From Oligoflexia bacterium (GTDB taxonomy: Bacteria; Bdellovibrionota; Bacteriovoracia; Bacteriovoracales; Bacteriovoracaceae), in contig JADGAN010000001.1 of the NCBI GenBank assembly GCA_015231955.1, positions 310,001-374,000 on the forward strand: a DNA stretch of 64,000 bases, read 5' to 3'. Both the position numbers and the translations under genes were made by a program. Position 1 is the first letter of the stretch; every line of letters starts with the position of its first letter. Shown piece by piece: positions 16,102 to 46,505 of this stretch. Under the pieces are notes generated by a model, which saw nothing but the letters and a program-made list of their open reading frames with translations, was not told the origin of the DNA and did not search any database.

Positions 16102-17964
16102 ATGTGTGGAATATTTGGGAGTGTTGCTCCCTATTTGATTGATGCAAAAAAATCGATATCTCTTCTTAACCATAGAGGGCCCGATCACTTAAATTACCTG
16201 GATACCCAGTCTCTCGGCCATTTTATCTCTCTGGCGCATGCACGTCTCTCCATTATCGATCTGAGCGATGTTGCTAATCAGCCTCTTCGACGAGAAGACC
16301 TGGGTTTAGTTATTGTATTTAATGGTGAGATTTATAACTATGCTACGTTAAGAGAGGAGCTTCTCTCTCAAGGGTGTACCTTCAAAACCCAGTCCGATAC
16401 AGAAGTGATTTTGGTTGGATATGCCCATGAAGGATCTAGTTTTTTAAATAAGATGAGAGGCATGTTCGCTTTTGCTATCTATGACCAGAGGCGAGGAAAT
16501 ATTTTTCTCGCGCGTGATCGCGTAGGAAAAAAGCCCCTCTATTTTTATAGGAAAGATGGTGTTTTATTATTTTCATCAGAAATTAAATCTCTGCTTACGT
16601 GTGAAGGTGTTGGTCGATCCCTTAATCTAATGGCACTCGAAGAGTATTTAAGTTTGGGATATATTCCGGCCCCGAAGACTATTTACCAAGAAATTCAGGT
16701 ATTAAATCCTGGTCACTATTTACTCCATCATATTGGAGGAGGGACAGAAATTTTTCGATACTGGAGAGTTCATTATGAATCAGCGCAAAAAAGTTTAAAC
16801 CATGTGGAAGCAATTACGTCGCTGATTGATGATTCGGTCAAGATCAGAATGTTGGCCTCTGATGTTCCGGTGGGCGCGTTTTTAAGTGGTGGTATCGATA
16901 GTAGTGCGGTTGTTGCCTTTGCAAGCAAGTATGTAGAGAAGCTAAAAACATTTTCTATCAAATTCCAAGAGAATTCCTTTGATGAATCTCGATATGCTGA
17001 GTTGGTGGCCAAAAAATTTCGAACGGATCATCATCAATTTACACTGGATTCTGATCTAGTTCACCTACTGCCAAAGATTGTATGGCATTTTGATCAGCCG
17101 TTCGCGGATTCTTCATCACTACCAACTTTTTATCTCTCTCAAAAGACATCAGAGCATGTAAAGGTTGTTTTAAGTGGGGATGGAGGGGATGAAAGTTTTG
17201 TTGGTTATGAACGCTATTTGGCCCATCTTATTGGAGAAAAATTTGAAAACCTTCCCGGGGTAGCAAGAAAAATATTGAGGCTTATAGCGAATTCTATTAC
17301 GACGACAGAACCAAAGCATTTTCTTTTTAAACTTAGACGGATGATTCATTTTTTGTTGGAAGATGGATGTTATCAACGATATTTAGGAACAATTCAAATA
17401 TTTTCTCCAAGGGAAATTTTAGAGTTAACAGGTCGGAATATTGCGGCCGGAACAATGAAAGAGATTTTGGATCGATTTTCTTCTGTTTTGGCCAATAAGA
17501 GCATTAATAAGGTGATAGGCTTTGATTTTGAAAACTATCTTCCAGACGATTTGCTGGTTAAAGTAGATCGTGCAAGCATGGCGCACTCTTTGGAGGTCAG
17601 ATCCCCCTTTTTAGATCACAAGTTGATTGAATATATGTCTGCGCTACCAATGCATATAAAATTAAAGCATTTTCATTTGAAACATTTATTAAAAAATAAG
17701 GTTTTAAGAGGTGTGCTTCCAGACGAGGTCTTATTTAGAAAGAAGATGGGGTTTGGAGTTCCCATTCATCAATGGTTTAAAAAAGATATTATTGCTTTGA
17801 CCGAAGAAAGATTATTTGATTCCTCTTTAGGAGTTATTCCCCTGAATCAGAATTATATGGAGAAAATTTTACAAGAACATAAAGAGGAAAAACAGAATCA
17901 TGCTTATAAATTGTGGTCGTTGTTAATGTTAAGAATGTGGGAAGATCAATGGGGAAGAAAGTAA
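16102..17964 (+). CDS. asnB: Asparagine synthetase B-like amidotransferase (paralogue 2)
   Basis: A protein of 620 aa with an N-terminal glutaminase domain (Cys2 in MCGIFGS, NHRGPDH, FNGEIYNY) and a synthetase domain (SGGIDS at 262-267, LSGDGGDESFVGY). All key ATP- and glutamine-binding features are present, so it should be active. It probably amidates a sugar carboxylate. The adjacent Gfo/Idh oxidoreductase fits uronic-acid or aminouronic-acid metabolism (inference). The 3' end overlaps the next gene by 16 bases. It differs from paralogue 1 through much of the synthetase half, so this is not a recent duplication. Confidence 0.88.
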   Translation: MCGIFGSVAPYLIDAKKSISLLNHRGPDHLNYLDTQSLGHFISLAHARLSIIDLSDVANQPLRREDLGLVIVFNGEIYNYATLREELLSQGCTFKTQSDTEVILVGYAHEGSSFLNKMRGMFAFAIYDQRRGNIFLARDRVGKKPLYFYRKDGVLLFSSEIKSLLTCEGVGRSLNLMALEEYLSLGYIPAPKTIYQEIQVLNPGHYLLHHIGGGTEIFRYWRVHYESAQKSLNHVEAITSLIDDSVKIRMLASDVPVGAFLSGGIDSSAVVAFASKYVEKLKTFSIKFQENSFDESRYAELVAKKFRTDHHQFTLDSDLVHLLPKIVWHFDQPFADSSSLPTFYLSQKTSEHVKVVLSGDGGDESFVGYERYLAHLIGEKFENLPGVARKILRLIANSITTTEPKHFLFKLRRMIHFLLEDGCYQRYLGTIQIFSPREILELTGRNIAAGTMKEILDRFSSVLANKSINKVIGFDFENYLPDDLLVKVDRASMAHSLEVRSPFLDHKLIEYMSALPMHIKLKHFHLKHLLKNKVLRGVLPDEVLFRKKMGFGVPIHQWFKKDIIALTEERLFDSSLGVIPLNQNYMEKILQEHKEEKQNHAYKLWSLLMLRMWEDQWGRK

Positions 17965-19867: not shown

Positions 19868-21766
19868 ATGTGTGGGATTGCTGGATACATAGGATTTAGA
19901 CCGCAAGATCAGCATGAAGTTATTTGTTCTATGACATCTACAATTCAACATAGGGGGCCTGATCATTCGGAAATTTTCACCCACAACCTGGCATGTGTCG
20001 GATTCAATCGTTTATCAATACTAGATCTTTCCGAAAAGGGAAATCAGCCGTTTTCAGCAGGAGAGACCACAATCTATTGTAATGGGGAGATTTATAATTA
20101 TCTTCAATTAAAGAAGGAACATAAATTAGAAGATTTTTGCAAATCGAGTTCAGATGTAGAAATCTTGCCTTATCTGTATAATTTATATGGACTAGATTTT
20201 TTAAAAAAAATCAATGGCATGTTTGGAATGGTCATCCTCGATAATAAAAAAAATGAAGTACACCTGGTGACTGATTATTGGGGGAAAAAGCCAATCTACT
20301 ATATTCAAAGGAAGGAAGGGATCTTTTTTTGTTCAGAACTAAAAGGTCTTATTTTGGGATTGGGGGATCTATCAGTTGATAGAGAGAATTTAGCACTAGG
20401 ACTCAATCTTGGATATTTTTTGTCTCCACTTACACCTGTAAAAGGCGTTTTAAAATTAAAACCAGCAACTCTTCTTACGTTAAAAAACAATAAAAATATA
20501 TCGATTCAACAGTGGTATGTTTTAAAACCAGATTATAGTATTAACAATTTAAATGATCGTGATCTGGAAGAACTCTACTATACTCATTTAGATGAATCGG
20601 TAAAAATGAGATTACAGGCCGATGTGGATGTCGGTGTTTTTTTAAGCGGAGGAATGGATTCAACTACAGTTGCTGAATCGGCAGCAAGACAGTATGGAAA
20701 GAAAATTCATGCTTTTGTAGGATTGACAGAAGGACGTGAAAATAGCACTGACTATGTGAACTCCTTGAAATTTACAGAGGGAAAAAATTTTATTATTCAC
20801 AAGTGTTACAATGATGCAAACTCATATTCCAATTTTCTGGTGCCTACTTGCTTTTCCTATGATGATATTCCTTTTGAATCTGGTATTTTGAATTTCATGA
20901 CAATAACGAAGGCGGCCCAACCACATGTAAAAGTTTTACTTGATGGAGTAGGTGGCGATGAGCTTTTTCTTGGATATCATTGGCACGAGGGGGTCTTTAA
21001 ACGTGTCAACCCTTTTTTGCGTAATCTAATTCCCTTTGGAGGTCGTTTTTTCTTTGATATGTTTAAGAATAATAGTCGAATGATGCTAAGGAGCATGATC
21101 CTTGGAAATATGGAAAAATGGGTTTATTTTACAAGGAATTATATTTCCTATGATTCCATGCGATTGTCTAAACATTACAATCCTCAAAAACTCTTTAGCA
21201 TTCTTGATGAAGCCTTGCCTTCATATGCCAAAGAATTTAAAAACACAACCGATCTGAATTGCCTTGCTTATTTAGAGCTGCTGGGAATTAGGACATTACA
21301 ACACTCCTTTTCAGACAGAACTTGCATGGCCTACTCTATTGAAAATAGAAGTCCACTGTCAGATTATAAACTTTTTGAAAAATTTCTAGGCGTGAGCGAA
21401 AAGAGAAAATTGGCCCATGGGAAGAAATTTTTAATGAAAAAGATATCATCTCGTCTACCTGAATGCATCAGAGGAGGGGAGAAAGAAGGCTTTAGTTCAC
21501 CACTTTACTTATGGTTTTTAAAAGACAAAAAATTACTGAACACAATTATTTCTTATATTAAAAATAAAAGATATATTTTAGATGATCTTGTTGATCATGC
21601 ATTACTAAATCAAATATTATCAAAATGGGAAAAAAGAGAGCTCTTGTCATGGCCGGATGGGATTCAACTTCATATGATGATTAGTGTACTCATTTGGCAT
21701 GAGATCTTTTTTGAAAAACGTTATCGAAACAGACCAGATATTAATATCTTTGAATTTTGCGAATGA
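19868..21766 (+). CDS. asnB: Asparagine synthetase B-like amidotransferase (paralogue 3, divergent)
   Basis: A protein of 632 aa. The glutaminase part is intact (Cys2 in MCGIAGY, QHRGPDH, CNGEIYNY). The synthetase P-loop reads SGGMDS (260-265). The second synthetase loop reads LLDGVGGDELFLGY near residue 356, where paralogue 1 has LTGDGGDELFGGY, so the ATP/acceptor site has drifted. Of the three AsnB-type proteins this is the least canonical. It may use a different acid substrate. It sits immediately before the GAPDH-like gene, at the boundary of the unusual metabolic block. The ATG follows a GGGGG stretch. Confidence 0.85.
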   Translation: MCGIAGYIGFRPQDQHEVICSMTSTIQHRGPDHSEIFTHNLACVGFNRLSILDLSEKGNQPFSAGETTIYCNGEIYNYLQLKKEHKLEDFCKSSSDVEILPYLYNLYGLDFLKKINGMFGMVILDNKKNEVHLVTDYWGKKPIYYIQRKEGIFFCSELKGLILGLGDLSVDRENLALGLNLGYFLSPLTPVKGVLKLKPATLLTLKNNKNISIQQWYVLKPDYSINNLNDRDLEELYYTHLDESVKMRLQADVDVGVFLSGGMDSTTVAESAARQYGKKIHAFVGLTEGRENSTDYVNSLKFTEGKNFIIHKCYNDANSYSNFLVPTCFSYDDIPFESGILNFMTITKAAQPHVKVLLDGVGGDELFLGYHWHEGVFKRVNPFLRNLIPFGGRFFFDMFKNNSRMMLRSMILGNMEKWVYFTRNYISYDSMRLSKHYNPQKLFSILDEALPSYAKEFKNTTDLNCLAYLELLGIRTLQHSFSDRTCMAYSIENRSPLSDYKLFEKFLGVSEKRKLAHGKKFLMKKISSRLPECIRGGEKEGFSSPLYLWFLKDKKLLNTIISYIKNKRYILDDLVDHALLNQILSKWEKRELLSWPDGIQLHMMISVLIWHEIFFEKRYRNRPDINIFEFCE

Positions 21767-21781
21767 TTTCAGGGGGTGGGC

Positions 21782-22834
21782 GTGATAAAAAGTAAGGTGT
21801 TTATCAATGGCTTTGGAAGAATTGGTCGATGTGTTGCGAGGTTGATGCAAGGGCATCCAGCATTGGATGTGGTTGGGATCAATGATATTGTTCAAGATAT
21901 TCATAACTTTAAATATCTTTACAACTACGATTCAACCTATGGGATTGCAGAGAAAAAAGCAGAAGTTAAAGACAATTTTTTAATCATAGATGGAAAAAGT
22001 ATTGGGTTTTACTCTGCTTCTTCACTTTATGATATTCCTTTCGATAAACTTGGAGTTGACATCCTGATAGAAAGCTCTGGCAGAAGTGAAAGTTTGGCCA
22101 TATGTAATGATCTTGTAGAACAAAAGCGCATAAAAAAAGTTGTATCAACAAATTCTCCAAAATCTGGAGTGGATAAAATCATTATTATGGGAGTGAATGA
22201 AAGCTGTTATGATCACTCTTGCGATCATGTTATTGGAAGCAGCATATGTGATGCAAATGCGATTGCTCATTTGGTAAAATGTATTGGTGAAAATTTAGGG
22301 ATTAAGCGAGGAATGGTAACAACGTTGCATCCGTGGCTTTCCTATCAAAATCTTGTTGATGGACCAATACGCTATCGACTTAACCCTGAAAATACCACTG
22401 TTGATTATTCTCTCGGAAGATCTTGCGTTGCCTCGCTTATTCCTAAAAACACCACAGCTATTGATGCTGTACTTCAAGTTCTTCCTGAATATACTGGTAA
22501 ACTAGAAGCAATGTCTTTTAGGATTCCTACAAATATTGTTACTTGTGCAGATTTAACATTTGAACTTAATACTAAGTGTAGTCTTGCTACTGTAAAAGAG
22601 ATCCTCGGTGCTTTGGCGAAGGAGAATCGTTTCTTAGAATTAGGCCAAGAGCATCTTATAAGTATTGATTATCTTAAAACTACAAAATCGTGTATTATTG
22701 ATGACCAATGGACAAGGGTCATTGATGATAGCATGGTGAAAATTATTTTATGGTATGATAATGAATGGGGATACAGTGCAAGAGTCGTTGATTTGATGGA
22801 GCATATCTCTGTCCATTTAAGGAGTAGAGTGTGA
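21782..22834 (+). CDS. Glyceraldehyde-3-phosphate dehydrogenase-like protein
   Basis: A protein of 350 aa. GTG at 21782 is chosen because AGGGGG lies five bases upstream; GTG at 21776 is an alternative. The NAD site is VFINGFGRIGRC. The catalytic region reads SSICDAN where GAPDH has SCTTN. Cys (about 156) aligns with the nucleophile and the catalytic His is present in TTLHPW (about 183). The C-terminal domain keeps LPEYTGKLEAMSFRIPT and WYDNEWGYSAR. It should oxidise a phosphorylated aldehyde to an acyl phosphate or acid. The altered loop and the glycan-locus context suggest a substrate other than glyceraldehyde-3-phosphate, for example a four-carbon or sugar aldehyde phosphate (inference). 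Confidence 0.83.
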   Translation: MIKSKVFINGFGRIGRCVARLMQGHPALDVVGINDIVQDIHNFKYLYNYDSTYGIAEKKAEVKDNFLIIDGKSIGFYSASSLYDIPFDKLGVDILIESSGRSESLAICNDLVEQKRIKKVVSTNSPKSGVDKIIIMGVNESCYDHSCDHVIGSSICDANAIAHLVKCIGENLGIKRGMVTTLHPWLSYQNLVDGPIRYRLNPENTTVDYSLGRSCVASLIPKNTTAIDAVLQVLPEYTGKLEAMSFRIPTNIVTCADLTFELNTKCSLATVKEILGALAKENRFLELGQEHLISIDYLKTTKSCIIDDQWTRVIDDSMVKIILWYDNEWGYSARVVDLMEHISVHLRSRV

Positions 22835-23565
22835 TGCTCAAAAAAGTTGTCGCGCTTGATTTTGACGGAGTGATTTGCGATAGTGCTAAAGAGTGCATGT
22901 TTGTTTCTTATATGGCCTATGTAAAAAGCAGTGATAATCATATTAAAATCAATACGAAACTTCGGGAAAGCTTTTTAAATCATCGTTATCTTGTTCGTGA
23001 TCCTAAAAATTTTTATCTTCTCTGGAAAGTGATTATCGAGGGATCCATTTCACAATATGCTGGAAAACAGGATCTGTTTGAGGAAAGAGCAAAAAACGAA
23101 AAAGATGAGAATTTCAACTCGTTTAGAGAGAGGTATTTTCAAACAAGAAAAAAATTAAAAGTAACTAATATCAAAACATGGTTAAGAAAAAATCCACTGT
23201 ATCCAAATGTAGAAGCTGTAATCAATAAGCTACTTGTTGATTATCCTGTTTATATTATAACTACTAAGGACATTGAATCTGTACAAGATATTTTGTATTT
23301 CCATGGGATCACACCTACAAAAATTTATGATGGATCGACATTCACACAGAAGGGTATGATTATTAATCAGCTTCAGGCCCAACATTCTAAAGAAGGAAAA
23401 AAATGTGTGATTTATTACGTTGATGATCAGTTTAGTGATCTTCAGTCTTGTCAATCTGCAGGAGCAGTTGTTCGTTGGGCAACGTGGGGTTATGGTTTGA
23501 AGCCTGAATCTATAACGGCACTAGAATCATTTGCAGAGATACCTCATTTTGTCCATTCAGTTTAG
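22834..23565 (+). CDS. HAD superfamily hydrolase (probable phosphatase)
   Basis: A protein of about 243 aa. Motif I is LDFDGVICDS near residue 8, where the first Asp is the nucleophile and the second the acid/base. Motif II is YIITTKD near 140, and the late acidic motif is YYVDDQFSDLQS. A helical cap of about 100 residues follows motif I, as in phosphoglycolate-phosphatase-like enzymes. The ATG at 22834 overlaps the GAPDH-like stop by one base; GTG at 22831 is also possible. Its position after the GAPDH-like gene suggests it dephosphorylates an intermediate of the same pathway (inference). Confidence 0.8.
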   Translation: MLKKVVALDFDGVICDSAKECMFVSYMAYVKSSDNHIKINTKLRESFLNHRYLVRDPKNFYLLWKVIIEGSISQYAGKQDLFEERAKNEKDENFNSFRERYFQTRKKLKVTNIKTWLRKNPLYPNVEAVINKLLVDYPVYIITTKDIESVQDILYFHGITPTKIYDGSTFTQKGMIINQLQAQHSKEGKKCVIYYVDDQFSDLQSCQSAGAVVRWATWGYGLKPESITALESFAEIPHFVHSV

Positions 23566-23580
23566 TAAAGGATCATATTT

Positions 23581-25134
23581 ATGCTAAGAAAAAATGTTGT
23601 TTTGGTGAACTTAACTAGTGATATGATTAGAGATCGAGAGTTTTATCGAAAAAATAAGGGGCAAAATTTTATTAATATTGGACTGCTGGTAGTTGCAACC
23701 ATGTTAAAAAAGCAGGGATATAATATTTCAATCATTGATATGGCCTATGAAGAAAATTACCAGCAACTCATTAGAAGTTCATTAGATGAAACAACTGCAT
23801 TTGTCGGATTGTCTGTGATGACCTCGCAAGTACCTGCTGCGTTGGAAATTAGTCGTCTTGTGAAAAATATTAATCCATCTATACCAGTTGTTTGGGGAGG
23901 ACCTCATCCAACTTTTTTCATTGAAGAGACAGCTCGTAGCTCGCTGGTTGATGTGGCGGTAGTGAATGAGTCATTGAAAATTTTACCGGAGCTGGCAAAA
24001 AGGTTAAGTGAAAGAGATCTATTAACAGGATTGCATGGAATAGCTTATAAAAATGATAAGCAAATTATTTATGCACCAAACACAGACTTAGATGATATTT
24101 ACGACCTTGGGGCCATTGATCATAGTTGTTATGATTCAACTCTATATACTAAAAGCCCATTATTTACGCCACCTCTTAATAAGGATCAAGTTGTTTCATA
24201 TCCTTTAATTACTGGATTAGGCTGTTGTTTTAAATGTCGTTTTTGTCTCAATGTTATTTTAAAGAGAAAGTATCGCTCCAAAACTCCTGAGGTAATCATA
24301 GAGGAGCTAAAAGATCTTCAGAAAAAATATGGCGCTAATGCAATTTGGTTTATGGATGAAGATTTTTTTATTAACAAGAAAAGAACAATTGAATTGTTTA
24401 AGCTTGTTGAAAAAGAAAACTTGAAGTTTTATTGGCGTAGTTGGGTACGAGTTGATCATTTTAAAGAAAATTATCTCGATAAAAAAACCGTAAGTTGGCT
24501 TACCGATTTGGGATGGGTCTGGTCTTCTCTTGGAGCGGAAAGCGGAAGTGTGAAATCGTTAACGTATATTCAAAAAGGGATTCAGCCAGAGCAGATTATC
24601 AATTCGGCCAAGATTTTATCTGAAGTATCGAGCAAAAATCAGCACTGGGCGCGGTACACATTTATTGTCGGACTTCCTAATGAAACCATTGACGATGTAC
24701 TCAAAACTTTTTCACTGGCCTCAAAAATCAGGATGATTAATCCTCTCACCGATATAACGATTGCTATCTTTCGCCCTTATCCTGGTTCTCCAATGTCTAA
24801 AGAACTTATGGATAAAGGAAATTTAAGTTATCCAGAAAAACTGGAAGATTGGGAGGGAGTGTTCTCTAACCATGGGTTTATGGATGAGAGTAGCACTCCT
24901 TGGTTATCGCAAAAGGAAAGAAGTGAGATTGCTACTTTACATGCTTTCTTTGGAATGATCAAAGGAGGATCAATTCAGAAAATTGGATTACTAAGGTATT
25001 TTATCAATCAATGGATATTATGGAGAATCGAGAACAATTTCTTTTTATTTCCAATAGAAAAAATTTTATTTTACTCTTTCTGGATTCGGATTAGGATGTA
25101 TTTTCTAAGTAGATCTCAATTGAAAAGGGCTTAA
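23581..25134 (+). CDS. B12-binding-domain radical SAM protein
   Basis: A protein of 517 aa. Residues 1-140 look like a cobalamin-binding Rossmann domain (IGLLVVATMLKKQGYNISIIDM, VVWGGPHPTF), although the classic D-x-H-x-x-G is not evident. The radical SAM cluster motif C-x-x-x-C-x-x-C is in GLGCCFKCRFCL near residue 217. Further blocks are WFMDEDFFI, SLGAESGS and FIVGLPNETIDDV, typical of BchE/HpnP-like proteins. Such enzymes do C-methylations, ring rearrangements or oxidations. AAGGA stands eight bases before the ATG. The substrate is unknown. Its place between a HAD hydrolase and a hydroxyacid dehydrogenase suggests it modifies a small-molecule precursor. Confidence 0.83.
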   Translation: MLRKNVVLVNLTSDMIRDREFYRKNKGQNFINIGLLVVATMLKKQGYNISIIDMAYEENYQQLIRSSLDETTAFVGLSVMTSQVPAALEISRLVKNINPSIPVVWGGPHPTFFIEETARSSLVDVAVVNESLKILPELAKRLSERDLLTGLHGIAYKNDKQIIYAPNTDLDDIYDLGAIDHSCYDSTLYTKSPLFTPPLNKDQVVSYPLITGLGCCFKCRFCLNVILKRKYRSKTPEVIIEELKDLQKKYGANAIWFMDEDFFINKKRTIELFKLVEKENLKFYWRSWVRVDHFKENYLDKKTVSWLTDLGWVWSSLGAESGSVKSLTYIQKGIQPEQIINSAKILSEVSSKNQHWARYTFIVGLPNETIDDVLKTFSLASKIRMINPLTDITIAIFRPYPGSPMSKELMDKGNLSYPEKLEDWEGVFSNHGFMDESSTPWLSQKERSEIATLHAFFGMIKGGSIQKIGLLRYFINQWILWRIENNFFLFPIEKILFYSFWIRIRMYFLSRSQLKRA

Positions 25135-25137
25135 GAG

Positions 25138-26175
25138 ATGAAAAAAAAATATAAAGTTGTCATTTCCGAGGGCAAGAGACCTTCGATGTATTTAAAGCAT
25201 ATTGAGAATATCAAAAAAGAAATTTTCGGTGAAGATTTTGAAGTTATTTTGGCAAAGGATTTGGAAGAAGAGACTCTTATTGAGAAAATTGTTGATGCCG
25301 ATTCTCTTATTATTCGCCCGGGAATGATGTTTACTAGCAAAAGTATAAAAAAATTAAAGCAATGCCAATGCATTGTTAGTTTGGCGGTTGGGTATGATCA
25401 TATCGATATTGATTGTGCGAGTAAGCAGAAAATTAAAGTTTGCAATGTCCCTGATTATGGTTGTGAAGAGGTTGCGGACACGGCAATAGCACTCCTTTTG
25501 AATGCTGTAAGGAAAATTGGTTTTTACAATACGGTCTTAAAGGAGAATATTTGTAAATGGGATTGGCAGGTCGGAATACCGATGCATCGATTACGAAGTC
25601 AAAAATTGGGGATAATCGGCTTAGGCCGGATAGGCTCTGCTGTTGCCGTTAGGGCCAAGGCCTTTGGTATGGATGTGTGCTATTTTGATCCTTATAAAGA
25701 GTGTGGTTATGATAAATCACTTGGTATTTCAAGGATTGAAGCTATTGAAGATCTTTTAAGTTCATCAGACATTATAACAATCCATACCCCTTTAAATGAA
25801 GAGACGAAAGGTATGGTGAATAGATCGTTCATTGAAAAGATGAAGAGAGGGGCCATCCTGCTTAATACTGCGAGAGGAGCCATTTTTGATAGTCTGGATA
25901 CAATCTATTTTAGCTTGCAAAATGAGATTTTATCATTTGTTGCAACGGATGTTCTTCCAATTGAACCACCTATAGATGGAAAACATTTGTTATTAGAATC
26001 TTGGTCTACCGCCAGTTCCTTGTTTGATCAACGACTGGTTATAACACCTCATATGGCCTTTTATTCAGAAGAGGCCAGTTATGAGTTATGCTGTAAAGCT
26101 GCAGTTGCAGCGAGGAATTCTGTTCTGGGAAAAAGAGTTGATAATATTATTAATAGTGACAAATTTTTATATTGA
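25138..26175 (+). CDS. D-2-hydroxyacid dehydrogenase (NAD-dependent)
   Basis: A protein of 345 aa of the phosphoglycerate dehydrogenase/CtBP superfamily. The NAD motif LGIIGLGRIGSAV lies near residue 157. The catalytic Arg is in NTARGAIFDS, the Glu is probably in VLPIEPP and the His is in ITPHMAFYS. It interconverts a 2-hydroxyacid and a 2-ketoacid. A unique insertion (LLLESWSTASSLFDQ) precedes the His loop. The gene is three bases after the radical SAM gene. Its stop codon shares two bases with the target-site duplication of the small mobile element at 26174. Together with the GAPDH-like protein it resembles the Epd/PdxB order of steps (aldehyde phosphate, acid, 2-keto acid), but that is an analogy only. 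Confidence 0.87.
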   Translation: MKKKYKVVISEGKRPSMYLKHIENIKKEIFGEDFEVILAKDLEEETLIEKIVDADSLIIRPGMMFTSKSIKKLKQCQCIVSLAVGYDHIDIDCASKQKIKVCNVPDYGCEEVADTAIALLLNAVRKIGFYNTVLKENICKWDWQVGIPMHRLRSQKLGIIGLGRIGSAVAVRAKAFGMDVCYFDPYKECGYDKSLGISRIEAIEDLLSSSDIITIHTPLNEETKGMVNRSFIEKMKRGAILLNTARGAIFDSLDTIYFSLQNEILSFVATDVLPIEPPIDGKHLLLESWSTASSLFDQRLVITPHMAFYSEEASYELCCKAAVAARNSVLGKRVDNIINSDKFLY

Positions 26176-26295
26176 AAAAAAGTAACTGCTCACACCCTTC
26201 AGCCATCTACCCTCTACCGGATGCTGAAAGTTGCTTAGCTAACAGCATTTGGTTGAGAGGTGAAGGTTGAGGGGTGTGAGCAGTTACGAAAAAAA
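26174..26295. mobile_element. 106-bp IS66-like MITE with 8-bp target duplication
   Basis: The core at 26182-26287 is bounded by perfect 16-base terminal inverted repeats, GTAACTGCTCACACCC at the left and its complement at the right. Pairing continues imperfectly to 30 of 37 positions. An inner pair (ATGCTG at 26221-26226 with CAGCAT in 26243-26248) would extend the hairpin. The core is flanked on both sides by the identical 8-mer GAAAAAAA (26174-26181 and 26288-26295). Ends beginning GTAA plus 8-bp duplications are the known signature of the IS66 family. No transposase is encoded, so this would be a non-autonomous derivative. It separates the hydroxyacid dehydrogenase from the KARI-like gene and could fold in the mRNA. 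Confidence 0.75.
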
Positions 26296-26328: not shown

Positions 26329-27336
26329 ATGGGAAAAGTTTATTATGATAAGGATGCAGATCTTAAGGAAATAAAAAAACAGACAATTGCAATTATTGGA
26401 TATGGTATTCAAGGCAGGAACCAATCACTCAATATGCGTGAATCAGGTTTGAATGTCATTGTTGGAAATATTGATGACCATTATGCTCCGAATGCAATTA
26501 AAGATGGCTTCAAATTGTATTCTCCTGAAGCCGCCGCCGAAAGAGCAGATATCATCTATATGCTAATTCCTGACGATGCACAGGGATATGTTTATGAACA
26601 GTATATTCGCCAGCATATGACGAAAGGAAAAGCTATTGTCTTTGCTCATGGCTTTTCTATTCGCTATGGACGTATTGTTCCTCCTAAAGATGTTGATGTT
26701 ATGTTGATGGCACCAAGAATGCCTGGAAAGCAAATTCGGGAGTATTTTTTAAATGGAAGTGGTGCGCCTGTGTTTATTGGTGTTCATCAAAATTACACAA
26801 AAAGAGCAAAACACAGAGTTCTTGCAATGGCAAAAGCAATTGGAGCAACTCGCATTGGTGCACTAGAGGTTTCTTTTGAAGAGGAAACAGAAGTTGATCA
26901 TTTCATAGAACATTTTCTTTTGCCCATTATTGTTCGTGCTATAAGAGTTTCTTATGATGCACTTGTTGAGGAAGGATATAGCAAAGAGGTTGCTTTGCTT
27001 GAAACTTATGCATCTGGAGAAATCGGGGAGCTTATTCTTGAGGCATCGAGAGTTGGTTTATATCAAGTTTTTCAGCAAAACACATCTCCCACTGCTCAAT
27101 TTGGCATGGCCCATTATGCAGAAAAAGTTTTTCCTGATTCAAATAAGAAGATGATTAAAGATATTTTAAAGAAGATTAAGAATGGTGAATTTGAAAAAGT
27201 TTTAAAGAAAGAAGGACTATCTGGCTATAAGCATTTAAAAAAGGTAGTTAAAGATAATAATCAATCTGATCTTATAAAAACGCATCATCGTTTACAAAAA
27301 ATGATTAAAATTAGTGGGAATGAGGCCGTAAAATAA
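26329..27336 (+). CDS. Ketol-acid reductoisomerase-like protein with altered active-site Lys
   Basis: A protein of 335 aa from the ATG at 26329, with AGGG just upstream. In-frame codons further 5' come from the MITE and are not native. It follows class I KARI (IlvC) closely at the start (VYYDKDADL, AIIGYGIQGRN at 21-31, FAHGFSI with His107, Asp190 and Glu194 in VDHFIEH). At position 130, where IlvC has Lys in APKGPG, this protein has Arg (APRMPG). The C-terminal metal-site glutamates are only partly matched (E225, E231). IlvC performs an alkyl shift plus NADPH reduction of acetolactate. The substitution and the glycan-locus neighbours point to a different branched ketol-acid substrate or a simple reductase role (inference). 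Confidence 0.85.
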   Translation: MGKVYYDKDADLKEIKKQTIAIIGYGIQGRNQSLNMRESGLNVIVGNIDDHYAPNAIKDGFKLYSPEAAAERADIIYMLIPDDAQGYVYEQYIRQHMTKGKAIVFAHGFSIRYGRIVPPKDVDVMLMAPRMPGKQIREYFLNGSGAPVFIGVHQNYTKRAKHRVLAMAKAIGATRIGALEVSFEEETEVDHFIEHFLLPIIVRAIRVSYDALVEEGYSKEVALLETYASGEIGELILEASRVGLYQVFQQNTSPTAQFGMAHYAEKVFPDSNKKMIKDILKKIKNGEFEKVLKKEGLSGYKHLKKVVKDNNQSDLIKTHHRLQKMIKISGNEAVK

Positions 27337-27355
27337 TTGTAAAAGGAGATTGGTC

Positions 27356-28114
27356 ATGGTTGTAGGTCTTCTCGTAGGTAAAGATAGAAGTATTGGTTTT
27401 CCAGATAAACATAAAAAGTTAATTTTAGGTAGGCCACTTGTGGAGTACGCTTTTCTTTCTGCCACTCATTCAAAAAAAATTGAGAGACTTTTTGTTTCGT
27501 CGGATTCTCCATTCATTATGGACATAGGAGAAAAGTATGGTGCAACGACTCTTTTAAGACCAAAAGAGCTAGCTCAACCAGATACTCTTTTAGAGGATTC
27601 TTTGATTTATGCTTATAAGCAAATGGAAGCAGTTCTTGAAACAAGCATTGATACTGTTGTTCTCTTTTTTGCTAATGCTCCAATGATCCCGCCAGGCTCT
27701 ATTGATAAGGGGATAGAGTTATTGCAAGAGAAATCAGAATATGACTCTGTTTTTTCTGTTTGCAAATATAACATGTTTTCACCTGCTAGGGCCTATAAAT
27801 TGACCAATGAAAGTGAGATTGCTCCCTTTATTGATAAAAATGCATTTGATCTTGAGAAAAGAGTAACTTCTATTCGTGATAGTCAGGGTGATTGCTTTTT
27901 CTGCACTCTCCAAGTTCAGATTCTTCGAGGACGATGTTTTACTCATATGGATGAAGGTCAATTGACTTATAAATGGATGGGACGTCGTTCTTATGCCATG
28001 GTTACAGACATTGGTTTTGATATTGATTATGACTGGCAAATCCCAACTGTTGAGGGATGGCTTGTGAAGACTGGTTTTACAGATAAAAGCACGCCTTATG
28101 ATTTATTAAGGTGA
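27356..28114 (+). CDS. CMP-sugar synthetase-like nucleotidyltransferase (divergent NeuA/KdsB family)
   Basis: A protein of 252 aa. ATG 27356 is preferred because AGGAG lies seven bases upstream. The N-terminal loop reads VGKDRSIGFPDKHKKLILGRPLVEY, corresponding to the A-R-G-G-S-K-x-x-P-x-K-N loop of acylneuraminate cytidylyltransferases but diverged. RLFVSSDSPFI and ATTLLRPKELAQPDTLLED match the following conserved blocks, and TDIGFDIDYDWQI matches the end of the family. It should activate an acid or ulosonic acid, usually with CTP. The unusual loop leaves nucleotide and substrate open. It is the last gene of the plus-strand block and overlaps the convergent gene by 19 bases. Confidence 0.75.
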   Translation: MVVGLLVGKDRSIGFPDKHKKLILGRPLVEYAFLSATHSKKIERLFVSSDSPFIMDIGEKYGATTLLRPKELAQPDTLLEDSLIYAYKQMEAVLETSIDTVVLFFANAPMIPPGSIDKGIELLQEKSEYDSVFSVCKYNMFSPARAYKLTNESEIAPFIDKNAFDLEKRVTSIRDSQGDCFFCTLQVQILRGRCFTHMDEGQLTYKWMGRRSYAMVTDIGFDIDYDWQIPTVEGWLVKTGFTDKSTPYDLLR

Positions 28115-32655: not shown

Positions 32656-32841
32656 TAAGTAATTGCTGGTAAAGTATTTTTCTTTATTTTATGATTGTTT
32701 TTTAGTTGCACTTAAGTGTCAACATTCAGTAGATCAATTTCAAACTGGGCCCTGCGTCGTGATTACACCTCTTGCTTTTTTGTCAAAATACCTAGAACAT
32801 TGTACTTTTACCACTCATCGAAAAATTTTGGAAGATCCTTT

Positions 32842-33816
32842 ATGCGCCACTCACAAAACAACATTAAAACTCTACAACGCTATTATCACGATATGCTTTT
32901 GATTAGAAGGTTTGAGGAAAAAGTTCTCTCCTTTTTTGATGTTAGTAATAAAAATAAAATTTTTGGAACTACACACGTCTACATTGGTCAAGAGGCAGTT
33001 GCTGTTGGTGTATGTTCAAAATTAAGGCAAAATGACTTCATTACCAGTACTCATCGAGGGCATGGCCATTTTTTAGCAAAAGGAGGAGACCCTGCTCGAA
33101 TTATGGCAGAGCTCTTCGGAAAAGTTACAGGTTATAGCAAAGGCAAAGGCGGTACTCAACATATGGGCGATCTCTCCATCGGTCATTTGGGTTCGAATGG
33201 AATTACAGGTGGAGGGCTTCCTATTGCTACTGGGGCCGGATTTTCTATCCAATATCAAAAGCAAGACCAGGTTGTCGTTTGTTTCTTTGGCGATGGTGCT
33301 GCCAACGAAGGTATGTTTCACGAAAGCTTAAACATGGCCGCTATATGGAGCCTGCCTATCATTTTTATATGCGAAAACAATCTTTATGCTATGTCAACGC
33401 CCATAAAAAATTCATTTTCCGTTCCTGATATTGCAACACGTGCTTGTGCTTATGGAATTGAAGGAGTCATCGTGGATGGAATGTGTGTTTTGGATGTCGC
33501 TGCTAAAACTGAAGCTGCGGTTGAAAAAGCAAGAGGTGGAGGCGGCCCCACTCTTTTAGAGTGCAAAACCTATCGGTTTTTGGGGCATTCTAAAAATGAT
33601 CTTTGTGCTTATAGAACTAGAGAGGAGGAGAGTGAGTGGAGAAAAAAAGATCCTTTGGTTCAGATGGAGACCTGTTTGCATCACGAAGGTATGAGTTTAC
33701 AAGAATTCACCGCTATATCGAATGAAGTTAATCAGACGATTGAAGATGCCGTGCGCTTTGCTGATGATAGCCCTTGGCCATCGTCTCAAGAACTATTTAC
33801 AGATCTCTACTGTTAA
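32842..33816 (+). CDS. Thiamine-diphosphate dehydrogenase E1 component, alpha subunit
   Basis: A protein of 324 aa from the ATG at 32842, with GGAAGA six bases upstream. A longer frame exists 5' but its residues do not look like E1. Conserved blocks are THVYIGQEAVAVG, STHRGHGHFLAKG and YSKGKGGTQHMGD. The TPP/Mg motif runs from CFFGDGAANEG to ENN (about residues 140-175), and YRFLGHSKND is the regulatory-loop region. Length and motifs match pyruvate/acetoin-type E1-alpha. No E2 or E3 is encoded nearby. The pair may catalyse TPP-dependent decarboxylation or two-carbon (acetyl) transfer on a sugar or keto acid for the glycan, rather than feed central metabolism (inference). Confidence 0.88.
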   Translation: MRHSQNNIKTLQRYYHDMLLIRRFEEKVLSFFDVSNKNKIFGTTHVYIGQEAVAVGVCSKLRQNDFITSTHRGHGHFLAKGGDPARIMAELFGKVTGYSKGKGGTQHMGDLSIGHLGSNGITGGGLPIATGAGFSIQYQKQDQVVVCFFGDGAANEGMFHESLNMAAIWSLPIIFICENNLYAMSTPIKNSFSVPDIATRACAYGIEGVIVDGMCVLDVAAKTEAAVEKARGGGGPTLLECKTYRFLGHSKNDLCAYRTREEESEWRKKDPLVQMETCLHHEGMSLQEFTAISNEVNQTIEDAVRFADDSPWPSSQELFTDLYC

Positions 33817-33834
33817 CTCTTAAAAGGAATTACC

Positions 33835-34872
33835 GTGAAAAATGTTTTCTACTTAAAGGCCATTCAAGAAGCTTTGATTGAAGAGATTGAACGAGATCCC
33901 TCTGTCTTTCTCATGGGAGAGGATATTGGAGAGTATGGAGGTTGCTTTGGCGTCACGAGAGGAATGCTAAAAACCTTTGGATCCAAAAGAGTTGTAGATC
34001 TTCCGATGTCTGAAACTAGCTTTATGGGCATGGCGGTCGGTGCGGCCATCACCGGCCTAAGACCTATTGTAGAAATCATGTTCATGGATTTTATTACTCT
34101 AAGTTCAGATGCCATTATCAATCATGCTATTAAACTACGTTATATCTTTGGTGGTGGAGTAAAAGTTCCCTTAGTTATTAGGGCCCCTTCTGGAGCAGGA
34201 AAACGATACGGTTCTTCTCACTCTCAATCGCTGGAGAGTCTATTTATGAACTTTCCAGGCCTGAAAATTGTGGCGCCTTCAACTCCTGCAGATGCCAAAG
34301 GCCTTTTGAAATCTGCAATCAGAGATGATAATCCAGTCCTCTTTATTGAGAATAAAGGTCTCTACTGGACCAAAGGAAATATCCCTGAGTCAGAATGTCT
34401 CATTCCAATTGGAGTTGCTAACATTCGGAGAGAAGGTTGTGATGTTACAATAGCAACATACTCCAGAATGGTGGATCTTGCCTTAGAGGCGGCCCAAGAT
34501 TTGGCCACTGAGGGTATCCATGTGGAAGTCCTTGATCTTCGCTCACTTGCTCCATTGGATACCGATACTTTATTTAACTCTGTATCTAAAACTGGAAGGC
34601 TTGTCACTTTGGAAGAAGGGTATCTTCCAACAGGTGTGGGTGCAGAACTTTCTTCTCTGGTGGTTGAACATCTCTTTTCGCGACTCAAATCTCCAATATA
34701 TCGAATTGCTTGCGAAGCTGTTCCTATTCCTTACAGTCCCGTTTTGGAAGATTTGGCCATTCCCAGTAAAGATAAAGTCATTGCTACAATAAAAAAATCG
34801 TGCAACTTTCAATCGAATACTATCTATGTGAGAAACAAATGGAACCATCAAGAACACAGAATGGATATCTAA
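33835..34872 (+). CDS. Thiamine-diphosphate dehydrogenase E1 component, beta subunit
   Basis: A protein of 345 aa starting with GTG at 33835, after AAAGGA. Recognisable E1-beta blocks are MGEDIGEYGGCFGVTRG (the conserved Glu that activates TPP), DLPMSETSFMGMAVGAA, EIMFMDFI and APSGAGKRYGSSHSQSLE. The C-terminal domain shows VLDLRSLAPLDTDTL and TLEEGYLPTGVGAE. It forms the alpha2beta2 enzyme with the gene upstream (gap 18 bases). The 3' end overlaps the acyltransferase gene by 34 bases, a strong sign that the three act together. Donor and acceptor are unknown. Confidence 0.9.
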   Translation: MKNVFYLKAIQEALIEEIERDPSVFLMGEDIGEYGGCFGVTRGMLKTFGSKRVVDLPMSETSFMGMAVGAAITGLRPIVEIMFMDFITLSSDAIINHAIKLRYIFGGGVKVPLVIRAPSGAGKRYGSSHSQSLESLFMNFPGLKIVAPSTPADAKGLLKSAIRDDNPVLFIENKGLYWTKGNIPESECLIPIGVANIRREGCDVTIATYSRMVDLALEAAQDLATEGIHVEVLDLRSLAPLDTDTLFNSVSKTGRLVTLEEGYLPTGVGAELSSLVVEHLFSRLKSPIYRIACEAVPIPYSPVLEDLAIPSKDKVIATIKKSCNFQSNTIYVRNKWNHQEHRMDI

Positions 34873-35951
34873 ACGAAGATTTTTTGAATCTTATAAAAAA
34901 AGATCGAGAACATTTTTCAAAGCTGTCTTCTGATACTAAAATCTGGCTCTATCGAGTTCATGGTGCCATTATTGGTGGAGATATGCGATTTTCACCAGGA
35001 TCGATTATCTTAAGCAAGCATATCGAAATAGGAGAGAGCGTTTTTATTGGAAATGATGTAGTGATTGAAACGGACTCTCTTTGCCTGGGTACATTGAGTT
35101 ATATCGGACACTCGTCTACGATTCATGCACGAAAAGTTTTCTTTCATGAAAATGTTTTTTTAAGTAAGAATGTGGAGGTTGGTGGTGGAGGCTTTCGTGA
35201 TCCAGAGTCGGAAATTGAAATTCACTCACATTGTCATATTGGACAAGACGTTCACCTTAATTGTTGTAGACGTATTGAGATTGGAGAAGAATCGACGATC
35301 ACCATTGGTACCATGATCATGACCCATTGTTTTGCGAATTCAGTTCTAGAGGGATATCCTGTTGTCTTTTCTCCTGTCAAGATCGGTCGCAATGTTCAAA
35401 TTGGTCTTCGTTGTACTATATTTCCTGGGGTGACTATCGAGGATGGAGCAGTTGTTGGATCCAATTCTAATGTTATGTCAAAAGTTTCTGCAGAAACTTA
35501 TTATTGTGGGGTACCTGCCAAAGCATTGGGTCCTGCAAAAAAAACGTATTCTCCTGAGCGCCAATACAAAATTGCTACAGATCTTGTTCTTGATTTTATC
35601 AAGCAACTTACTTTGTTGAAATACAATGTTGAAGTTTTGCGTGGAGGATACGATGAAATTAATTGCACAGTGACCTTAGACCAAAAAAAAATGAAGTTAA
35701 TTTTTAGAAAAGTTATTGAAATTGATCAATTGCATGAAGTAATAGATCAATCAGATGAAACTCTTTATATCTGTTTAAGTGCAATGCCATCACATTTACA
35801 AAATGTAGAAAAAATTGCGGTTATTGGATTGCTTGAAAAAAAAATCATTGGAACATCTGGTCTTTTGACAAATACGCTTAGAGAATTTTTAAGGAAAAGA
35901 GGAATTCGGTTAATTCCTAAAACATGGAGTTATCGAGGTGGATTGATTTAA
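34839..35951 (+). CDS. Left-handed beta-helix (hexapeptide) acyltransferase with C-terminal extension
   Basis: A protein of 370 aa from the ATG at 34839. Residues 55-240 are hexapeptide repeats ([LIV]-G-x-x-x-x), ending in the classic TIFPGVTIEDGAVVGSNSNVMSKV and YYCGVPAKALG blocks of sugar O-/N-acetyltransferases. Residues 245-370 form an extra domain that I do not recognise. The start lies inside the E1-beta gene. In pyruvate dehydrogenase an acyltransferase (E2) takes the acetyl group from E1. Here a sugar-type acyltransferase occupies that place genetically, though it lacks a lipoyl domain and so cannot accept the group in the same way. Confidence 0.8.
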   Translation: MEPSRTQNGYLNEDFLNLIKKDREHFSKLSSDTKIWLYRVHGAIIGGDMRFSPGSIILSKHIEIGESVFIGNDVVIETDSLCLGTLSYIGHSSTIHARKVFFHENVFLSKNVEVGGGGFRDPESEIEIHSHCHIGQDVHLNCCRRIEIGEESTITIGTMIMTHCFANSVLEGYPVVFSPVKIGRNVQIGLRCTIFPGVTIEDGAVVGSNSNVMSKVSAETYYCGVPAKALGPAKKTYSPERQYKIATDLVLDFIKQLTLLKYNVEVLRGGYDEINCTVTLDQKKMKLIFRKVIEIDQLHEVIDQSDETLYICLSAMPSHLQNVEKIAVIGLLEKKIIGTSGLLTNTLREFLRKRGIRLIPKTWSYRGGLI

Positions 35952-41279: not shown

Positions 41280-42161
41280 TTAATGACCTCGTAATTTTTT
41301 ACGAACAGATAGTTCGTTTTCTGTCAATCGCTTAACACCATCGCCTAATACGGTCTCGAGTTCTCTGATTCTTCTGCATAAAATATCCATGCCCGTAACT
41401 TCAATGCTTGCAAAATGATCCGATCCCCACATCGAATGATCAAGGGTAATATGTCTCTCAATAATTCTGGCCCCGAGTAGAACGGAGGTTACTGTTGGCT
41501 CAAGACCATACTCATGTCCGCTGTATCCCACAATACAGTTGTATCGATCTTTTAGAGACTGTATTATTTTTAGATTAAGTTCTTGTGGTGGGGTTGGGTA
41601 TGTGGAATTGGTATGCATTAAAATATAATCACCATTGGTATGCTTTTCTAATATATTGACTGCCTCATCGATTTCATCGTAGTTGCTCATGCCCGTAGAT
41701 AGTATAATAAGCTTATTGGTTTTTGCTGCATGGATAAGTAACTCTTTTTCCGTTAACTTGGAAGAAGGGATTTTTAGAAAAGGAACATCGTAATTTAATA
41801 TGAAATCAATACTTGGAATATCCCAGACAGAAGCAGACCACTCGATGGGTTTTTCTTTGCAATAGTGATCAATATAAGAATATTCAAGCTGGCCAAATTC
41901 TAACTTGTACCTGTAGTCCAGGTATGTCATTCTTCCCCATGGAGTGTCTCTCATAACGCCTTTTTGGTGCTCTGGAACGCAAATACTGGGCGTTCTTTTT
42001 TGGAATTTAACACAATTCCAGTTGCACGCAAAAGCCGCATCGATCAGCTTTTTTGTAATGGTAAGATCACTGTTGTGGTTAATTCCAATTTCTGCGATCA
42101 AATAGACGGGACTGTTGTCGGAAATAGTATGATTCAAAATCTTAACAATCTTATTTGCCAT
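41280..42161 (-). CDS. neuB: NeuB-like ulosonic acid synthase lacking the SAF domain
   Basis: A protein of 293 aa that condenses phosphoenolpyruvate with an aldose or aldose phosphate to form a 2-keto-3-deoxy acid. The TIM-barrel motifs are VYLIAEIGINHNSDL near residue 18, VKFQKRTP, SASVWDIPSIDF, ILSTGMSNYDEI, NSTYPTPP, GYSGHEYGLEP and ERHITLDHSMWGSDHFAS. Ordinary NeuB proteins (about 340 aa) end in a SAF antifreeze-like domain of about 60 residues. Here the protein stops at RKKLRGH, with no such domain. It lies with a CMP-synthetase/phosphatase fusion and KdnA/KdnB-like genes. Its product could be an 8- or 9-carbon ulosonic acid. Confidence 0.87.
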   Translation of the reverse strand: MANKIVKILNHTISDNSPVYLIAEIGINHNSDLTITKKLIDAAFACNWNCVKFQKRTPSICVPEHQKGVMRDTPWGRMTYLDYRYKLEFGQLEYSYIDHYCKEKPIEWSASVWDIPSIDFILNYDVPFLKIPSSKLTEKELLIHAAKTNKLIILSTGMSNYDEIDEAVNILEKHTNGDYILMHTNSTYPTPPQELNLKIIQSLKDRYNCIVGYSGHEYGLEPTVTSVLLGARIIERHITLDHSMWGSDHFASIEVTGMDILCRRIRELETVLGDGVKRLTENELSVRKKLRGH

Positions 42162-42183
42162 AGATCTACCACCCCATTAATAT

Positions 42184-43032
42184 TTATAGATTAATACTAG
42201 AAAAAATCGTATCACAGATACCAAGTGCTGCCAATTGTTCTTCGTAAGCTTGATTTAATCCTGGAGAATTTAAAAAATGAAAATGCTTGTGTCCTCCAGG
42301 GGATTTTTTTGAAAGCCAGTATAGATGATTGGCGAGAGGATATCTTTGGATTTGCTTGATATAGGAAATTTTGAAGCCACAATTATTGAAAAGCTTTGCA
42401 AGAGTTTGGCCATTGTATAAAAACAGATGACAACTCCAGTAGGTGAAATTTGAGAACTCTTGTGATTCATACAAAGTGAGTAATGCATCGGCTGAATTAG
42501 GTACTTCAATAATGATTTTCCCACCAGGGGTGAGGTGTTGTTTAAGCTGATTTAAAAAATTGATAGGATCAGCAATATGTTCTAGAACATGAAATAGTGT
42601 GATAAAATCAAAACGATCATTAGTGGAGAGATGATTTATGCTTTCAACTGTATGCAAATTTTTTTTTTGATGATAATCCCGAGCATTTATTTCCAGTTCG
42701 ACACCCATGGTAAGAGAAGTTTTTTTTGCAGCTTTTAATAAAAAACCACCATTCCCACAGCCGACGTCAAGCAATGATTTGTTTTCAATAAGCTGATGAA
42801 GAACCTTATATCTTCTTGAGTCGTCATCTTCTGTTTCTGTTAACCATTTATCAATATCAACTTGTTTGTCATGCATTCCAGATTGTTCATAAAAATCAAC
42901 TGGAAGGTGCTTGTCCGAGGGTAAAAACACGAGAGAGCAGTTGTTGCATTCATAGATTGGAAGTGATGGATTATCACGAACCTTTCCTTGTCGTGTTTTG
43001 TGGGAATTACTTCCACAAAGGTAGCAGATCAT
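42184..43032 (-). CDS. Class I SAM methyltransferase with zinc ribbon
   Basis: A protein of 282 aa. It starts directly with the zinc ribbon (ICYLCGS, then CNNC near residue 31). SAM-binding motifs are SLLDVGCGNGGFLL and TLFHVLEHIADPINFL, and PGGKIIIEVPNSADALL follows. It lies between the NeuB-like gene and the CMP-synthetase fusion with a gap of only two bases to the latter, so its substrate may be the ulosonic acid or its precursor (inference). It is the third member of this methyltransferase type in the locus. Confidence 0.82.
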   Translation of the reverse strand: MICYLCGSNSHKTRQGKVRDNPSLPIYECNNCSLVFLPSDKHLPVDFYEQSGMHDKQVDIDKWLTETEDDDSRRYKVLHQLIENKSLLDVGCGNGGFLLKAAKKTSLTMGVELEINARDYHQKKNLHTVESINHLSTNDRFDFITLFHVLEHIADPINFLNQLKQHLTPGGKIIIEVPNSADALLTLYESQEFSNFTYWSCHLFLYNGQTLAKLFNNCGFKISYIKQIQRYPLANHLYWLSKKSPGGHKHFHFLNSPGLNQAYEEQLAALGICDTIFSSINL

Positions 43033-43034
43033 GA

Positions 43035-44174
43035 TTATTCTCCATTATGCACATTAATTATGAGATCACAAAACTCTCGAACTGCTCCTTCTCCTCCCTT
43101 TCCGAGAGTAATATAAATGGCAACAGACTTGTTTGCAGAAGAAGCATTGGCAACAGTCACGGGGCATCCGACGATTTTTAAAGCAGACAGGTCATTTAGG
43201 TCATCGCCAATATATGCAAGTTGGTTTAATGTTATGTTTTCCATTTGTGCTAATTTTTTCACCACATCGGATTTTTCTTTTATTCCTTGATAGAGATGGT
43301 CTATTTTTAATTTGTTTGCTCGTCTGGCCACAATCTCAGTGTTTTCACTTGTCACAATAGCTGTTTTAATTCCAAGAGATCGTATCAGCTCTATGCCCTT
43401 TCCATCTCTTGTATTGAACTTCTTGATTTCATCACCATTTTCACTGTAATACATACTCCCATCTGTTAGGACACCATCGACATCAAGAATAAGCATTTTT
43501 ATATTCTTGATTTTTTCTCTTAAAGAAAGAGGAATGCACTCTGGATGGAAGCGCTTTAGTAGTAGTTGTTCTACAATGAAAAAATCAGTGTCATCGTCGA
43601 TCTCGTAACTAAGTTCTTTGCTCGAGATCATTCTTTCAATTTTCCCGCCAAACCAAAGTCCTTGCTCAACTAGTTCTTTCTTTAAAATATAGATATTTCC
43701 ATCGTCATAAAAAAATCCCTTAATTTGTTGGCGGGGGAGGTTGCAATGAGTTGCATACTCTTTTATTTTTGTATAATAACCACTTGCTAACGTATCACTC
43801 ATGGTGTTGTTGAATGAATGAATGGCCTCGTCAATCGTAGATGGATTACGAATGGGGGATGTTGGTTGTAAAACAACGACCGCAGTGATTTTTCCTTTTA
43901 AAGGATGATGTTCGACGATGTGCTTGAGCAATTCTATTGTCGTTGTGTCATCTTCTGCTAAGTCAGATGGACGCTGGAGTACCTTGGCCCCATATTGTTG
44001 AGCTATCTGAGCAATCTCATCATCCTCTGTAGAGACATAAAATTCATCCAGTAATTTTGAGTTCTTTGCGGCTTCAATTGTCCAATAGATGAGAGGAAAT
44101 CCTGCTATTGGTTTTATATTCTTCCTTGGAATTCCCTTGCTTCCACCTCTTGCTGGAATAATTCCGATAATCAT
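43035..44174 (-). CDS. CMP-ulosonate synthetase fused to KdsC-type HAD phosphatase
   Basis: A protein of 379 aa with two domains. Residues 1-205 are an acylneuraminate/KDO cytidylyltransferase (PARGGSKGIPRKN near 7, LQPTSPIRNPSTID near 102). Residues 225-375 are a HAD phosphatase of the KdsC type (LILDVDGVLTDG near 229, AIVTSENTE, YIGDDLNDL). The first domain activates a 2-keto-3-deoxy acid with CTP. The second would remove a phosphate, which fits a NeuB-like synthase producing a phosphorylated ulosonic acid. Animal CMAS has the same order, but bacterial fusions are less common. A GGAG precedes the ATG. Confidence 0.87.
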   Translation of the reverse strand: MIIGIIPARGGSKGIPRKNIKPIAGFPLIYWTIEAAKNSKLLDEFYVSTEDDEIAQIAQQYGAKVLQRPSDLAEDDTTTIELLKHIVEHHPLKGKITAVVVLQPTSPIRNPSTIDEAIHSFNNTMSDTLASGYYTKIKEYATHCNLPRQQIKGFFYDDGNIYILKKELVEQGLWFGGKIERMISSKELSYEIDDDTDFFIVEQLLLKRFHPECIPLSLREKIKNIKMLILDVDGVLTDGSMYYSENGDEIKKFNTRDGKGIELIRSLGIKTAIVTSENTEIVARRANKLKIDHLYQGIKEKSDVVKKLAQMENITLNQLAYIGDDLNDLSALKIVGCPVTVANASSANKSVAIYITLGKGGEGAVREFCDLIINVHNGE

Positions 44175-44190
44175 ATTTTCAATGTTCTCC

Positions 44191-45267: not shown

Positions 45268-45271
45268 TCAT

Positions 45272-46465: not shown

Positions 46466-46505
46466 ATAGATTATCTCCATCTGTTCATGTTAAAGGTGTC
46501 TGGCT

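Follow-up and report, generated by a model that had tools for sequence, protein, structure and literature searches.

A KARI-family reductoisomerase paralogue of the Arg-type (BurG) clade in a surface glycan region of an Oligoflexia bacterium

Introduction

An intriguing question is what a protein of the KARI (reductoisomerase) family may do in the midst of genes for a surface glycan. The gene that raises it is located on a 64,000-nucleotide stretch of DNA, here called the window, from contig C26 of an Oligoflexia bacterium of the Bacteriovoracaceae (genome G000; 95% complete, 114 contigs). The original prediction for this gene was that of a reductoisomerase with Arg in place of the active-site Lys, repurposed to act on a glycan precursor. 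A precedent for a new role exists in BurG, an NAD+-dependent KARI-family enzyme that closes the cyclopropanol ring of malleicyprol via a hidden redox cycle and for which structures are available (PDB 7PCC-7PCT; PMC9359912). In the open-access literature searched, BurG was the only KARI member found with another demonstrated reaction, and open-access papers yielded nothing specific on KARI-like genes in glycan loci or on the gene module described below.

Results

From position 14207 onwards, the plus strand of the window carries genes for an epimerase, a nucleotidyltransferase, two asparagine-synthase-like proteins, a Gfo/Idh oxidoreductase and a glycosyltransferase, which are followed by the genes of interest in this order:

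21776-22834, plus strand: GAPDH-like dehydrogenase with candidate catalytic Cys and His
22831-23565, plus strand: HAD-superfamily hydrolase, a candidate phosphatase
23581-25134, plus strand: B12-binding radical SAM protein with CxxxCxxC, a candidate methyltransferase
25138-26175, plus strand: D-2-hydroxyacid dehydrogenase (2HADH) of the PGDH type
26182-26287, no strand assigned: palindromic repeat (hairpin) of 106 bp between the 2HADH and KARI-like genes
26329-27336, plus strand: Arg-type KARI-like protein of 335 amino acids (Pfam KARI_N/KARI_C, BurG alignment, tree)
27350-28114, plus strand: cytidylyltransferase (PF02348), PseF/NeuA-like

The window as a whole is a surface glycan region, since it encodes glycosyltransferases, acyltransferases and a protein of the flippase type as well as NeuB and a second cytidylyltransferase. 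It also features three asparagine-synthase-like amidotransferase genes (5896-7827, 16102-17964 and 19868-21766), genes for the alpha and beta subunits of an E1-type dehydrogenase followed by a hexapeptide-repeat protein (32716-35951), and a cluster of NeuB, a cytidylyltransferase-HAD fusion, an Fe-dependent alcohol dehydrogenase and a DegT aminotransferase (41280-46480), which we take to be reminiscent of 8-amino-Kdo genes.

The open reading frame of the KARI-like protein is complete and intact, with its stop at 27336. The near-perfect palindrome in front of it (arms GTAACTGCTCACACCC; RNA fold of -74 kcal/mol, z -12.5) has a second copy with equal spacing elsewhere in the same genome (L044) and is thus an interspersed hairpin repeat. 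The longer reading frame called automatically starts with a GTG (26260) inside this palindrome; since, in addition, the relative from Oscillibacter also opens with MGKVYYDKD, the ATG at 26329 is the likely start. Both KARI domains are detected far above the Pfam cut-offs (KARI_N, PF07991, E = 1.9e-58; KARI_C, PF01450, E = 5.8e-23), which places the protein in the KARI fold superfamily. Its best matches among solved structures are KARIs, with 5e4r (239 bits) followed by BurG (7PCC series, 230 bits); an AF2 model built from two sequences had a pLDDT of 54 and was too poor for a fold search.

Alignment confirms the central element of the original prediction, i.e. that Lys130 has given way to Arg: the APKGPG motif of KARIs reads APRMPG in the window protein (Arg130-Met131-Pro132), which thereby lacks the IlvC Lys feature, and the active-site Lys is present in all 20 comparison KARIs. 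His107, Asp190 and Glu194 are indeed found at the IlvC numbering proposed for them, and the residue set further includes Asn47, Asp50, Glu225, Ser229-Gly230-Glu231 and Ser253. The assignment of an NADPH loop holds for the Rossmann motif GYGxQG, which is retained, but not for the cofactor-specificity loop, VGNIDD, which is identical to that of BurG, where Asn48 and Asp51 exclude NADP (PMC9359912). As Asn47 and Asp50 of the window protein align with these two NAD-selective residues, an NAD loop is more likely than an NADPH loop, with the preference being based on these two aligned positions. Where only a partial match of the C-terminal glutamates had been noted, both turned out to be present: Glu225 aligns with KARI Glu226, and Glu231 corresponds to Glu232 of BurG, its catalytic, enolising base (PMC9359912). 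Whereas the second Glu is found four residues past the first in canonical KARIs, it is shifted in the window protein by a two-residue insertion common to the Arg-type group, and an equivalent of Glu231 is retained in all Arg-type members. Taken together, conserved metal ligands, an NAD-type loop and a BurG-type base suggest that the window enzyme may share the head-group chemistry of BurG. The printed BurG alignment also shows Arg where KARIs have Lys (PMC9359912), a change that we found discussed nowhere in the main text of that paper.

Is this Arg the mark of a lineage? Our tree comprised 25 sequences, i.e. 20 Lys-type KARIs, drawn from two phyla only, and five Arg-type proteins: the window protein, its relative from a second genome of the same family (G030), an Eleftheria protein of the BurG type (L005), which stood in for BurG itself, and two proteins from Bacillota (Oscillibacter, L003; G739, L039). 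The five Arg-type sequences form one branch (support 100/98) apart from all Lys-type KARIs, which persists when the trait columns are removed (SH-aLRT 94). Within it, the window, G030 and Eleftheria proteins group together (100/99), with a branching order inside this trio that may be influenced by long branches; the window protein is about 37% identical to the Eleftheria protein. The change from Lys to Arg is thus a trait of a clade that includes the structurally solved BurG, and the window protein is a member of this clade. A BurG-like gene on a plasmid of Rhizobium lusitanum (L004:12001-13541) extends over two open reading frames, adjoins decarboxylase, methyltransferase, PKS and TauD-family genes, and was omitted from the tree.

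Arg-type genes were infrequent in the genomes searched. Among the matches listed for 398 Bacillota genomes, two were Arg-type and three further ones at the threshold were Lys-type; in 368 genomes of the window's own phylum, a motif-pattern search, which could overlook variants, gave two confirmed matches among those listed (window and G030). Two other pattern matches (L029 and L030) were dismissed as chance matches within unrelated genes, and the viral contigs searched contained no relatives with an Arg-type alignment. The Bacillota proteins share APRM, Asp50, the insertion and the clade with the window protein, but are encoded outside glycan clusters and have Ser in place of His107. In G739, the gene adjoins those of a dehydratase of the IlvD family and an aldolase of the DapA family, and a 2HADH gene lies further along, an arrangement that suggests hydroxy-acid substrates; in Oscillibacter, the neighbours are a GntR-type regulator and a cystathionine/methionine-lyase-type gene.

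Could the protein nevertheless be an ordinary IlvC that tolerates the exchange of Lys for Arg? It does share with class I KARI IlvC (EC 1.1.1.86) both domains as well as His107, Asp190, Glu194 and Glu225 (KARI Glu226), and it scores above the cut-off of the broad model TIGR00465 (267.9 versus 226 bits). It remains, however, below that of the stricter model NF004017 (292 versus 336), and the Arg, the insertion, the NAD-type loop and the separate clade all set it apart. Moreover, IlvD had no match in its genome, whereas all 14 control genomes gave one, and acetolactate synthase was not detected above the cut-off there (best 383 versus 538 bits), which makes an IlvC function unlikely. The same pattern recurs within the family: IlvD had no match in G030 (86% complete), which also has an Arg-type gene, but is present in both G036 and G008, which have a Lys-type KARI. 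The claim that no other branched-chain gene is present applies to the window; the genome at large does contain a second, divergent KARI-like gene (L002:1486-2439, contig C22), which is of the Lys type, scores under the ilvC cut-offs and sits on a very long branch, yet there is no match to IlvD. This second gene adjoins a lysine 2,3-aminomutase-type gene. By the residues and the genome context tested, the window protein is not IlvC, and we give that reading hardly any chance; the idea of a repurposed reductoisomerase is well supported by the separate clade, the kinship with BurG and the distribution of IlvD in the family.

A cyclopropanol synthase that acts, like BurG, on a sulfonium acid would be in line with the shared clade, the NAD-type loop and the equivalents of Arg and Glu232. 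Yet Tyr133, which contacts the sulfonium in BurG (PMC9359912), corresponds to Pro132 in the window protein and is Pro in G030 too; no match to a TauD-type dioxygenase, which serves the BurC step, was found in the whole window genome, and no PKS, decarboxylase or TauD domain was detected among the window open reading frames scanned. The loss of the Tyr and the missing dioxygenase argue against a sulfonium substrate. Beyond the KARI fold and the traits just mentioned, the two systems diverge, with BurG belonging to a polyketide cluster and the window gene to a glycan cluster, beside which no gonydiol genes were found. A genuine BurG function is therefore unlikely, and we would accord it only a slim chance.

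Comparison of loci shows which neighbours travel together. In G030, which represents another genus, a glycosyltransferase gene is followed in turn by those of a cytidylyltransferase, a 2HADH, the KARI-like protein, an SDR and a second 2HADH; adjacency of 2HADH and KARI-like genes is therefore found in two genera, and the window 2HADH is 45% identical to the G030 copy beside the KARI-like gene. A cytidylyltransferase gene occurs in both loci, with no close kinship between the two proteins, and GAPDH, HAD and radical SAM genes were absent from the G030 stretch read. A search with the 2HADH in 356 genomes of the phylum gave, among the matches listed, four at 1e-62, i.e. window and G030 as the best ones plus G315 and G316, which belong to another family. 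In glycan loci of the latter two, the GAPDH/HAD/cytidylyltransferase/2HADH set occurs together, with identities to the window proteins of 40-42%, 24-25%, 38-39% and 38-40%, respectively, and the GAPDH-like motifs SICDANA and TTLHPWLSYQNL are common to all three. The stretches read in G315 and G316 contain neither a KARI-like nor a radical SAM gene; next to the 2HADH gene, where the window has its KARI-like gene, they have one of the FAA-hydrolase family (L055:10868-11689 and L056:8074-8913). Since these genomes keep the module without it, the KARI-like step looks like an optional add-on to a conserved dehydrogenase/cytidylyltransferase module. Plasmid searches with the HAD, GAPDH and cytidylyltransferase proteins returned generic relatives only.

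With its PF02348 cytidylyltransferase and HAD enzyme, this module resembles the NeuA/KdsB/PseF-type pathways of ulosonic and nonulosonic acid CMP activation, but differs by its GAPDH-like, 2HADH and KARI-like (or FAA-hydrolase-family) steps, none of which, to our knowledge, is part of any such pathway. Pairing of a cytidylyltransferase with a B12 radical SAM protein also occurs in fosfomycin and phosphinothricin biosynthesis, and a role of the window protein in a phosphonate or phosphinate pathway would fit with the cytidylyltransferase gene directly adjoining its own and with the radical SAM neighbour matching P-methyltransferase models, albeit far below their cut-offs. A PEP mutase is not detected above the cut-off in the genome, however (best 114 versus 320 bits), a result that led us to reject this pathway, and G315 and G316 retain the rest of the module with no radical SAM gene in the stretches read. 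We consider such a role very improbable.

Discussion

What, then, may the window enzyme do? The reading that we favour, with a confidence somewhat above even, is that of a BurG-clade KARI paralogue outside branched-chain synthesis that is NAD(H)-linked and acts on a small 2-oxo-3-hydroxy or 2,3-dihydroxy acid on its way to a probably CMP-activated glycan precursor. The glycan part of this reading, already put forward in the original prediction, is plausible in view of the conserved 2HADH/cytidylyltransferase neighbourhood from which the substrate is deduced, although neighbourhood can be a misleading guide in glycan clusters, whose genes are mobile.

In such a scheme, the protein would bind NAD(H) and two Mg2+ and hold the carboxylate and alpha-oxygen of the acid, which would be supplied by the adjacent 2HADH and, in the window, perhaps originate from an aldose phosphate through the action of the GAPDH-like protein. 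With Glu231 as the base and hydride transfer by the nicotinamide as in BurG, exchange of a hydride at C2 and of a proton at C3 on the two Mg2+ could result in the acid being enolised, epimerised, isomerised, reduced or altered in its skeleton. In a tentative order of steps, the product would then be dephosphorylated by the HAD enzyme, possibly C-methylated by the B12 radical SAM protein and CMP-activated by the cytidylyltransferase for transfer onto the surface glycan.

A simpler enzyme is conceivable, i.e. a plain NAD-dependent 2-oxo acid reductase that involves no skeletal rearrangement and, together with the D-specific 2HADH, inverts C2 of a hydroxy acid before activation. BurG itself reduces hydroxypyruvate with NADH, besides trapping 2-oxo-3-hydroxy enolates (PMC9359912), and a 2HADH gene adjoins the KARI-like gene in both genera. 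Nevertheless, the equivalent of the enolising base is conserved in all Arg-type members, and a pure reductase would have no obvious need for it, because the E232Q variant of BurG retained reductase activity (PMC9359912). We therefore see this as a possibility on the doubtful side.

Starting from the favoured reading of an NAD(H)-linked paralogue that serves a CMP-activated precursor, one may go a step further and speculate that the Arg-type branch is a wider hydroxy-acid or sugar-acid family, in which the acid formed by the window protein is rearranged, branched or ring-closed and becomes CMP-activated for the surface glycan. This we regard as a tentative and rather unlikely extension; if true, however, formation of such an acid would be a reaction undescribed for KARI enzymes outside BurG. 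In practical terms, if the Arg-type branch is broader, then Arg for Lys, an NAD-type loop and two extra residues ahead of the second C-terminal Glu would serve as a sequence rule for telling its enzymes apart from IlvC, a distinction that the broad annotation model TIGR00465 does not make. Such a branch, found in glycan loci and possibly also in loci for the catabolism of hydroxy acids, would likewise reveal the origin of BurG, and in the Oligoflexia bacterium studied here it points to an undescribed pathway for a CMP-linked acidic glycan precursor.
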